Both the position numbers and the translations under genes were made by a program. Shown here one piece after another: positions 41,113-43,475 of a stretch of DNA of 64,000 nucleotides. The notes under the pieces are model-generated. The model ran no database searches. It was given only the letters and a program-made list of their open reading frames with translations, and was not told the DNA's origin. Source of the stretch: Streptomyces sp. NBC_01551 (GTDB lineage: Bacteria > Actinomycetota > Actinomycetes > Streptomycetales > Streptomycetaceae); contig NZ_JAPEPX010000001.1 in the NCBI RefSeq assembly GCF_026339935.1, positions 5,235,501 to 5,299,500 on the forward strand, given 5' to 3'. Every line of letters starts with the position of its first letter. The first letter of the stretch is position 1.

Positions 41113-42168
41113 TCAGGAACTGCTGCTGGAGCAGCTGGAGCTGGACGAGCCGCAACTCGAACTGCTGCTGGAGCAGCTGCTGGAGGACGACCCGCAGCTG
41201 GAGCTGGAGGATCCGCAGCCGGACCCGGACGACCCGCAGCCGGAACCGGAGCCGCCGCCACAGCCGGAGCCGCCGCCGCAGCCGCTCGAACCGCCCCCGG
41301 ATCCCCCGTCGCCGCTCGCGCACCACACCACCGGCAGGATCTCGGCGGAGGACGCCCACGCCGCGTCGGAGCCGTGCGACCCGGCGGACCGGCGGTGCCC
41401 GGCCTGGGCCGCCGCCAGCCGGGTGCCGCGCACCGCCGGCACCAGCTGCTCGCGCAGGTACGGGTCGCGCAGCCCCCGCAGCCCGAGCAGCGCCGTCTGC
41501 ACGTGCGGGGTCTGGTTCGTCAGGTACGCCGACCGCATCGCGCGCAGCGCCGTCCGCCCCGCCGGGGTGATCCGCTGCTTGGCCCGCGAGGCCGCGACGG
41601 CGCCGATGACGAGCCCGCCGATCAGCACGGGGAGCACCTTGACGAGGAACGGCACGCGCGAGGTCGGATCCAGCGCGAACCCGAGGATCGTCAGCACCAG
41701 CGAGACCGGCAGCAGGGCCCCGCACAGCACGGCCTGCGTCACGCCCCAGCGCCGCCACCGGCGCCCGGAGCCGGGCGGGCTGATCAGTCCGCGCCCGGCC
41801 AGCCCGTCCCCGATCTCCTGGATCGCGGGATCGGTCATGGCCGCGTACCGCACCTGGTAGAGCCACCCGGACGGCGCGCTCGCGTGCGCCTGGAGCACGG
41901 CCCGCTCGGCGACGTCGACGGCCCGCGCCCCGGGCCGTACCTGCACGATGCCCGGGCCGCCGCCCACCATCCGCTGGTCGCCCAGCAGCGAGACGATGGC
42001 CACGTCGACGACGTTGCCCGGGCCGCCCGCCATGAACGCGGCCTCGGACAGGTCGTGCAGCGCGGGCGCGGCGCCGCCCGGCGAGGGCCGGGACCGGCGC
42101 AGGCCGGCCAGCAGCAGCACGCTGGAGACGATGACGGCGATCCAGATCGCCGAGGCGAGGACGTTCAT
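41113..42168 (-). CDS. TIGR04222-type membrane protein with heptad-cysteine Gly/Ser tail
   Basis: 351 aa. Segment 1 spans about residues 4-22 and segments 2-3 about 143-193, with a cytoplasmic loop between (basic residues after segment 1), which puts the C-terminus in the cytoplasm. Residues 39-130 and 194-250 carry the TIGR04222 pattern (HDLSEAAFMAGGPGNVVDVA; ALLGLRGLRDPYLREQL). From residue 284 the chain is almost only Gly, Ser and Cys. Cysteines stand at 283, 297, 303, 311, 318, 325, 332, 339 and 346, the last six steps being seven residues each. The start ATG overlaps the stop of the upstream DUF692 enzyme gene by 4 nt. DUF692 enzymes modify cysteines in RiPP precursors, so this tail is the probable substrate. 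Family assignment is from memory of the model. Confidence 0.88.
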   Translation of the reverse strand: MNVLASAIWIAVIVSSVLLLAGLRRSRPSPGGAAPALHDLSEAAFMAGGPGNVVDVAIVSLLGDQRMVGGGPGIVQVRPGARAVDVAERAVLQAHASAPSGWLYQVRYAAMTDPAIQEIGDGLAGRGLISPPGSGRRWRRWGVTQAVLCGALLPVSLVLTILGFALDPTSRVPFLVKVLPVLIGGLVIGAVAASRAKQRITPAGRTALRAMRSAYLTNQTPHVQTALLGLRGLRDPYLREQLVPAVRGTRLAAAQAGHRRSAGSHGSDAAWASSAEILPVVWCASGDGGSGGGSSGCGGGSGCGGGSGSGCGSSGSGCGSSSSSCGSSSSSCSSSSSSCGSSSSSCSSSSS

Positions 42169-43475
42169 GCGGCTCTCCCCACGAGGGCCCGGGCCCAGCG
42201 CACGATCCGGCGGGGCGGGCGCACCCCGGCCCGCTCCTGCCACCATTCGGTGAGCCGGCGCCGGGCCGCCGGGTCGGCCGGCAGGTCCCGGATCAGCAGG
42301 TGCTCGGCGAAGTCCAGCGCGTCGCGGCGGTAGCCGCCGCCCATGGGCCGGTTGCGGGCGTACGCCAGGAACGCCTCGCGGTACGGCTTCTCGCCGCCCA
42401 GGATCCCGGGCAGCTCGGGCGCCACCTTGGCGACGACCCCGGCCCGCTTGGCGGCCAGCGCCCGCGTCTGCACCCGGATCCGCTGCCGGTCGAACCCCTC
42501 GGGCACCGGCGTCCCGGCCACCAGCGCCGACAGCAGCGCGGCCTGTTCCAGCCCGACCCGCGTCCGAGCGGCTTCCAGCCCCGCCGGCGTGTGAGGCGCG
42601 CGGTCCTGGGCGGCGTCCCGGGAAGCGGGAAGGGGCGGGGAGGGGGCGAGCGCCGCAGAGTTCACCACGCCCCGGATCGCCTCGAGTTCCCCGGCGAGCT
42701 CGCCCTCCGGGGGGAAGTCGTCGTCCCGCTCCAGCAGCACGCCGGGCGGGTCCACCCGCCGCCGCAGCTCAGCCAGTACGTCCAGCACGACGCCCGGCAC
42801 CGGGTGCGCGTGGGTGTCGTGCCAGACGCCGTCCCGCTCGAACCCGCCCGCGACGTGCACGTACGCCAGCGCCTCCAGCGGAATCGCGTCCAGCACGGCC
42901 GCCGGGTCCTCGCCCCGGTTCACCCGGTTCGTGTGCAGGTTCGCCACGTCGATCAGCAGCCGCACCCCGGTGCGCTCGACCAGCTCCGTCAGGAACTCGC
43001 CCTCCGTCATCTCCTCGCCGGGCCACGAGAACAGCGCGGCGATGTTCTCCAGCGCCAGCGGCACCGGCAGGGCGTCCTGCGCGATCCGCACGTTCTCGCA
43101 GAGCACGTCCAGCGCGTCCCGCGTGCGCGGCACCGGCAGCAGGTGCCCCGCCTCCAGGGCCGGCGCCGGCGCTGTCGTCCGTACGAACGCGATGTGCTCG
43201 GTGACCAGCGGCGCCCCCAGCGCCACCGCCCGCTCGCCGAGCGCGGCGAGGCTCTCCGGGTCGGGCCGGTGCGCCCCGCCGAGGCCGAGGGAGACCCCGT
43301 GCGGCACGACGCGGACGCCGCGCTCGCGCAGCCGCAGCAGCGAATCCGGCAGGTGGCCCGGGCAGATGTTCTCGGCCACGACCTCGACCCAGTCCAGCCC
43401 CGGCAGCCGCTCCACCGCGTCCGCGATCTCCGGCCGCCAGCCGATGCCCACCCCCAGGTGTGCCATGGGCTTCAT
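42165..43475 (-). CDS. DUF692 (MNIO) iron oxidative enzyme with fused C-terminal domain
   Basis: 436 aa; DUF692 proteins are usually about 280 aa. Residues 1-275 are the TIM-barrel enzyme, with likely iron ligands in VVPHGVSLGLGG (His59), VTEHIAFV (His94), LALENIAALF (Glu143), LLIDVANLHTNRV (Asp176, His181), YVHVAGG (His207), DTHAHP (His222) and LLERDDD (Glu249). MNIO enzymes oxidatively remodel cysteine in peptides (MbnB, TglH and related). Residues about 295-436 (GTPVPEGFDRQRIRVQTRAL, LPGILGGEKPYREAFLAYAR) resemble the DUF2063/BufC-type partner proteins that MNIOs normally use as separate subunits, so enzyme and partner seem fused. ATG 43475 follows GGGGGG. Its stop overlaps the membrane protein start. 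Confidence 0.9.
   Translation of the reverse strand: MKPMAHLGVGIGWRPEIADAVERLPGLDWVEVVAENICPGHLPDSLLRLRERGVRVVPHGVSLGLGGAHRPDPESLAALGERAVALGAPLVTEHIAFVRTTAPAPALEAGHLLPVPRTRDALDVLCENVRIAQDALPVPLALENIAALFSWPGEEMTEGEFLTELVERTGVRLLIDVANLHTNRVNRGEDPAAVLDAIPLEALAYVHVAGGFERDGVWHDTHAHPVPGVVLDVLAELRRRVDPPGVLLERDDDFPPEGELAGELEAIRGVVNSAALAPSPPLPASRDAAQDRAPHTPAGLEAARTRVGLEQAALLSALVAGTPVPEGFDRQRIRVQTRALAAKRAGVVAKVAPELPGILGGEKPYREAFLAYARNRPMGGGYRRDALDFAEHLLIRDLPADPAARRRLTEWWQERAGVRPPRRIVRWARALVGRAA

Follow-up and report, generated by a model that had tools for sequence, protein, structure and literature searches.

Does the oxidative enzyme encoded beside a cysteine-tailed membrane protein in Streptomyces sp. 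NBC_01551 act on that tail, and on which side of the membrane would the product then lie? The window analysed here, a stretch of 64,000 nucleotides (contig NZ_JAPEPX010000001.1, positions 5,235,501 to 5,299,500), carries on its reverse strand the gene of an enzyme of the MNIO family (DUF692/PF05114; 42165..43475 (-), a 436-aa open reading frame (ORF) with a profile match) followed by that of a predicted membrane protein of the TIGR04222 family (41113..42168 (-), 351 aa, likewise assigned by a profile match). The stop of the first and the start of the second share 4 nt (42165-42168), so the overlapping pair recognized in a first-pass annotation of this DNA holds. We propose that the nine-cysteine Gly/Ser tail of the TIGR04222 protein would be the substrate of the MNIO enzyme, with the help of a partner-like domain fused to it, on a tail predicted to be cytoplasmic; at the sequence level, this reading has about an even chance of being correct.

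The TIGR04222 domain spans residues 8-233 (41470..42147 (-)) and scores 120.2 bits against a cut-off of 43. Hydropathy predicts membrane helices at approximately residues 3-21, 147-165, and 174-192, and the model of residues 1-276 has a predicted local distance difference test score (pLDDT) of 93. Beyond it lies the tail, the likely substrate (residues 283-351; 41116..41322 (-)), whose 69 residues comprise 36 Ser, 22 Gly, 9 Cys, 1 Ala, and 1 Asp, close to the first-pass description of about 68 residues of almost only Gly and Ser. Its cysteines are at positions 283, 297, 303, 311, 318, 325, 332, 339, and 346, exactly as annotated, and one further cysteine, Cys-149, is within the second predicted membrane helix. 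The steps between the tail cysteines are 14, 6, 8, 7, 7, 7, 7, and 7, giving five exact sevens where six had been claimed. When nine cysteines were placed at random in 69 positions 200,000 times, a minimum gap of at least 6 arose in 0.02% of placements and a run of five equal gaps in 0.012%; the regular spacing of this single tail is more than chance. Glycine follows the tail cysteine in 210 of 242 cases among 51 Cys tails, and in the Streptomyces relatives the next residue is Gly after 443 and Ser after 397 of 873 cysteines. The EGKCG motif is absent from the TIGR04222 protein sequence, and neither DUF2282 nor DUF2063 gives a Pfam match in either the MNIO or the TIGR04222 protein of the window.

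The distribution of tail and enzyme across genomes links the two. We searched 295 genomes of the class for both families; 85 had TIGR04222 over the cut-off and 75 had MNIO. The genome of the window itself yielded a single match to each family. At most nine first-look candidates were scored per genome, and TIGR04222 copies may be missed. From these, 110 TIGR04222 places were used, excluding rows below the cut-off and second fragments of one frame. Genes were translated to the stop, and a Cys tail was defined as at least three cysteines, each preceded by Gly or Ser and followed by Gly, Ser, Ala, or the end. Such a tail was present in 43 of the 62 TIGR04222 genes with an MNIO gene within 5 kb, in 7 of 23 with an MNIO gene elsewhere in the genome, and in 1 of 25 from genomes with no MNIO match (per genome, 46/62 with MNIO and 1/23 without). 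The sole exception, in genome G198, lies at a contig end; behind it is the start of an MNIO frame (65% identity) cut by the end of the contig, as expected from G207, a genome of the same family code in which an MNIO gene follows. With this correction, an MNIO gene is present in the genome of each of the 51 Cys-tailed genes, and Cys tails occur in 0 of 24 TIGR04222 genes of MNIO-less genomes. A tail of this kind in a DUF692-less genome is what the first-pass annotation had named as refuting its coupling of enzyme and tail; it was sought among the 110 places and not found, and the coupling is supported. Fisher's test on the uncorrected counts (43/62 versus 1/25) gives p = 8.6e-9, with the related genomes not being independent. 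On a tree of 86 places (those below 55 bits or 150 residues dropped) there are 6 changes of MNIO and 11 of the tail; only 4-6 pairs were usable in the independent-pairs tests, which had little power and were not significant. No pair ran in the opposite direction for MNIO to tail or adjacency to tail; for tail to adjacency, roughly half of the pairings contained one opposite pair. Tail and MNIO are both present in 77 of 80 named Streptomyces-type loci, picked by similarity to the window protein; of the other three, two lie on contigs that stop 447 and 571 bases short of the gene, and one has its tail cut off. In this sample, Cys tails are closely linked to MNIO and depend on it one-sidedly, and this co-occurrence across genomes is an addition to what is in print.

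The enzyme itself is a member of the iron-dependent oxidase family MNIO, as judged from its profile match and conserved motifs. Its catalytic domain (residues 8-270; 42666..43454 (-)) scores 257 bits against PF05114 (cut-off 25) and aligns to 3bww, with residues 129-250 aligning also to 8hci_D. Residues His-59, His-94, Glu-143, Asp-176, His-207, Asp-220, His-222, and Glu-249 all reach 98% conservation or more in an alignment of 121 close relatives; these His/Asp/Glu motifs are presumably the iron-site ligands. The enzyme falls below the cut-offs of all five NCBIfam equivalogs compared (BufB, HvfB, ApyH, ChrH, and MbnB), the best being BufB at 174.7 bits against 310.

Overlooked in the first-pass annotation was the remainder of this polypeptide. 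Residues 300-436 (42168..42578 (-)) correspond to PF26136, a region labeled "SCO6045-like C-terminal domain" in the names of relatives, and they match separate ORFs behind the MNIO genes of other actinobacteria by hhalign (probability 99.5, E = 3.5e-23). Of 41 loci, nine passed the filters for that set, among them a short residue pattern; the partner-like ORFs L061, L100, L101, L110, and L112 fell outside it and were scored separately. A PME-type 2 partner is encoded directly behind MNIO and lacks a DUF2063 signature; the homologous ORFs lie behind MNIO, and in the window the equivalent is fused to the enzyme, which has no Pfam match to DUF2063. The predicted structure of the fused domain has a pLDDT of 85, and its structural matches are all weak, with TglI first and MbnC fifth. 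Because residues 300-436 are homologous to the separate ORFs and TglI heads the weak structural matches, we consider that enzyme and partner are likely fused here, the C-terminal domain being a likely partner-like helper domain on profile and model evidence. TglHI and MbnBC are pairs of enzyme and partner on separate chains with small peptides as substrates. Their catalytic domains are homologous to the window MNIO; however, they differ from it in being two chains where the window has one polypeptide. As for SCO6045, we take it to be a DUF692 protein of S. coelicolor. In one table of an RNA-seq study of HbpS-SenS-SenR redox sensing, SCO6045 is changed ∼3-fold (PMC4991794).

The pairing is not new, contrary to what the first-pass annotation had supposed. 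Antoine et al. (2025; PMC12452194) proposed that subsets of the TIGR04222 membrane proteins are substrates of MNIO enzymes, uncharacterized in the accessible text of that paper, which also describes their Ser/Gly/Cys ends. There, TIGR04222 proteins form 40% of a set of over 1,000 proteins that contain Cys, lack a signal, and are encoded ahead of MNIO genes; 490 of 1,372 TIGR04222 genomes are without MNIO, and a partner gene is apparently missing from many TIGR04222-MNIO clusters. In a genome paper of 2016, a TIGR04222 peptide is named as part of a bacteriocin cluster (PMC5183585). The window shares with the loci of Antoine et al. the gene order peptidyl-tRNA hydrolase (PTH)-like, MNIO, TIGR04222 (given there as "adjamnio-II (peptidyl-tRNA hydrolase) - MNIO - TIGR04222", 13 sequences) and a Gly/Ser/Cys C-terminal tail as the proposed MNIO substrate. 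It differs in that their tail is placed outside and no partner gene is noted in many of their clusters, whereas here the tail is predicted inside and a partner-like domain is fused. The window system is thus a variant of a pairing already proposed in print, and it is a real, conserved system; further additions are the likely partner domain fused to the MNIO enzyme of a TIGR04222 locus and, as set out below, a second type of anchor in one genus and the arguments for a cytoplasmic tail. In the searched literature, mostly non-subscription and excluding supplements, we recognized no report of a fused partner, of one-helix tail proteins (described below), or of a characterized product. Of the first-pass interpretation as a whole, then, the coupling and the predicted cytoplasmic tail are supported, and the novelty and the heptad as a defining feature are not.

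A chemical precedent is that of MNIO enzymes that, with a partner, turn the cysteines of EGKCG repeats into 5-thiooxazoles with a loss of 4 H and an absorbance at ∼302-305 nm; according to the accessible text, such products bind copper (PMC13097082). These bufferins and captophorins (DUF2282 or EGKCG precursors, DUF2063 partner) resemble the window system in the MNIO, the partner protein, and the repeated cysteines, often before Gly, but differ in that the TIGR04222 protein has no EGKCG motif, neither window protein of the pair matches DUF2063, and a predicted membrane protein contains the likely substrate. In our reading, the TIGR04222 protein would insert with its N terminus out, leaving middle domain and tail in the cytoplasm, as charges and the relation to DUF2207 (below) suggest, and the fused domain would hold the tail. 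The iron site may then oxidize the Gly/Ser-flanked cysteines one by one and independently, most probably, by analogy, through a 4-hydrogen oxidation to 5-thiooxazole; we favor one-by-one modification over a register-dependent structure because the spacing is variable. The product would stay tethered under the membrane as a multivalent ligand for a soft metal, probably copper, tethered heterocycles being suggested by the 5-thiooxazole precedent, the Gly after Cys, and the variable spacing.

Several observations weigh against this reading. The exact heptad, which the first-pass annotation had treated as the defining feature, is not conserved and is no family rule: among homologues (120 listed of 204) the commonest Cys gaps are 7 (312), 8 (242), 6 (81), and 9 (69). 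The TIGR04222 genes near MNIO include 19 of 62 without a Cys tail, 17 of them in the window's genus, where 4 follow a tailed copy. In the window's genus, 8 of the 13 loci with tail-less genes only were examined, and these held no other Cys-tail ORF on the MNIO strand, while all seven MNIO motifs are kept in seven of the eight loci and six in the last. Furthermore, no TIGR04222 place passes the cut-off in 13 of the 75 MNIO genomes. From the retention of MNIO in loci and genomes without the tail it follows that the enzyme has some role without it. Among weak TIGR04222 relatives, ends were examined in 16 of the 19 loci below the cut-off (L017, L023, and L024 left out), two of them scanned as DUF2207, and the last 40 residues are Cys-free in 15; the sixteenth, L022 (genome G128), has a different Cys-rich end of CACACACA-type and no MNIO match in its genome, a possible counterexample. 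Loci of the window's genus that have MNIO with the fused domain and a TIGR04222 gene without Cys tail are L158, L160, L161, L162, L163, L164, L091, and L093. Two further genomes of that genus, G023 (L252) and G221 (L253), have MNIO with the fused domain and no TIGR04222 match, and no Cys-tail ORF was seen at their MNIO loci.

Such cases are what would be expected if the tail were left unmodified, its free thiols binding soft metals or sensing redox, as unmodified Gly/Ser/Cys tails could, and the MNIO acted on another protein; the seven Cys-tailed genes whose MNIO is at another genomic site point the same way. We regard this alternative as rather improbable, since interspersed-Cys tails are missing from MNIO-less genomes (0 of 24 places) even though the codons AGC, GGC, and TGC are one base apart, and since in another genus a different anchor carries the Cys tails found next to MNIO. 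This came from reading the MNIO loci for five of those seven genes (G211, G352, G327, G274, and G220, all in one genus, code g158; G174 was left out, and in G350 the MNIO adjoins another TIGR04222 gene). In G352, G327, G274, and G220, the MNIO gene is followed by one for a protein of 60-99 aa that combines a single hydrophobic helix, judged by eye, with a Gly/Ser/His/Cys tail and leaves no room for a TIGR04222 domain; the two genes overlap in three of the four genomes, and G327 has two copies of the tail protein. None was found at the second MNIO locus of G220 or at the MNIO locus of G211. A separate partner-like ORF follows in all five genomes (E = 2e-10 to 3.8e-12). The one-helix tail genes of L246, L247, L248, and L249 are placed between MNIO and this ORF. 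In genus g158 the tail thus persists beside MNIO without the TIGR04222 domain, on a second type of anchor.

Alternatively, the tail could be modified in the cytoplasm and then lie outside the membrane in the manner of bufferins, as Antoine et al. propose. Their accessible text places the TIGR04222 tail in the periplasm, its topology inference favoring an outside tail, and bufferins are exported via Sec (PMC12452194). To this may be added the four predicted helices in 9 of the 74 proteins of our topology set (TIGR04222 places of at least 75 bits); three helices are predicted in 54, two in 10, and five in 1. In the 54 three-helix proteins, however, mean Lys+Arg counts are 0.24 before and 2.48 after helix 1, 2.85 before helix 2, 0.83 in the loop, and 2.89 after helix 3, a positive-inside distribution that places the N terminus out and the middle domain and tail in. 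By eye, the window protein, with three helices, obeys this rule of charges. Longer proteins are also weak matches to the TIGR04222 profile, and both of those scanned are DUF2207 (YciQ-like) proteins, with the matched stretch in DUF2207_C. Comparison of the two profiles by hhalign (probability 66.7, E = 5.3e-5) suggests remote homology with collinear domain and helices, and PF20990 (DUF2207_C) matches 7 of 26 TIGR04222 proteins weakly (best E = 0.031). DUF2207 proteins share the domain, two helices, and a Gly/Ser end; they differ in that, in both of those scanned, a further N-terminal domain precedes the first helix. They also have an apparent signal peptide (by eye), and this arrangement likewise leads to an N-out, tail-in topology. 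In the one-helix tail proteins, helix and tail are separated by Arg-rich stretches. An outside tail is therefore unlikely, and the prediction is for a cytoplasmic one, contrary to the published inference and in line with the first-pass prediction.

It is highly improbable that the tail is functionless low-complexity drift produced by slippage and linked to MNIO only by shared neighborhood, since, despite a 21- and 42-base periodicity in its DNA (Tandem Repeats Finder) and tail lengths and spacings that differ between close relatives, its Ser codons are mixed (TCC 16, AGC 12, TCG 5, AGT 3) and it is therefore no single, newly slipped DNA repeat, all but one of the 120 listed homologues have 6-12 cysteines near the C-terminal end, the minimum Cys spacing is far from random, and Gly/Ser-rich ends without any Cys make up 5 of 7 MNIO-less cases versus 0 of 44 beside MNIO.

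Returning to the modified cytoplasmic tail, its fullest form would be a never-released metal buffer resembling a ribosomally synthesized and post-translationally modified peptide, in which a single-chain MNIO-partner enzyme turns the repeated cysteines of a tail permanently tethered at the cytoplasmic face of the actinobacterial membrane into heterocyclic ligands, the tail being movable as a module between at least two kinds of anchor; this we put forward tentatively, at somewhat below an even chance.

Upstream of the MNIO gene, after a 161-nt gap, lies a PTH2-type PTH-like gene (43637..44404 (-); PF01981, 42.5 bits), a conserved neighbor found near MNIO in 75 of the 80 named loci. Its 255-aa product falls within the 233-256 range of Antoine et al. 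but differs in matching PF01981 and having no Cys, where their accessible text gives PF01195 and one Cys for a family that looks identical to it (PMC12452194). Downstream is a TAP-like alpha/beta hydrolase gene (39251..40999 (-); PF00561, PF08386), seen in the examined DNA of 41 of the 80 loci, which is possibly in one transcription unit with the MNIO-TIGR04222 pair. Convergent to the locus, at 36925-39149, are genes for a flavin adenine dinucleotide (FAD) oxidase and a chlorite-dismutase/HemQ-like protein, which presumably have heme roles; a link of iron or heme to the MNIO locus is possible. Among the matches listed, the closest named relatives of the window proteins are from Streptomyces goshikiensis.

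To our knowledge, every MNIO product yet characterized is either a small peptide or a small exported protein. Modification of this tail would mean that a membrane protein common in actinobacteria carries, and keeps, a chemistry attributed to natural-product peptides. The fused partner-like domain bears on a question raised in print, namely how the MNIO of TIGR04222 clusters without a partner would work (PMC12452194), and the fused enzyme offers a single polypeptide on which the reaction is testable.
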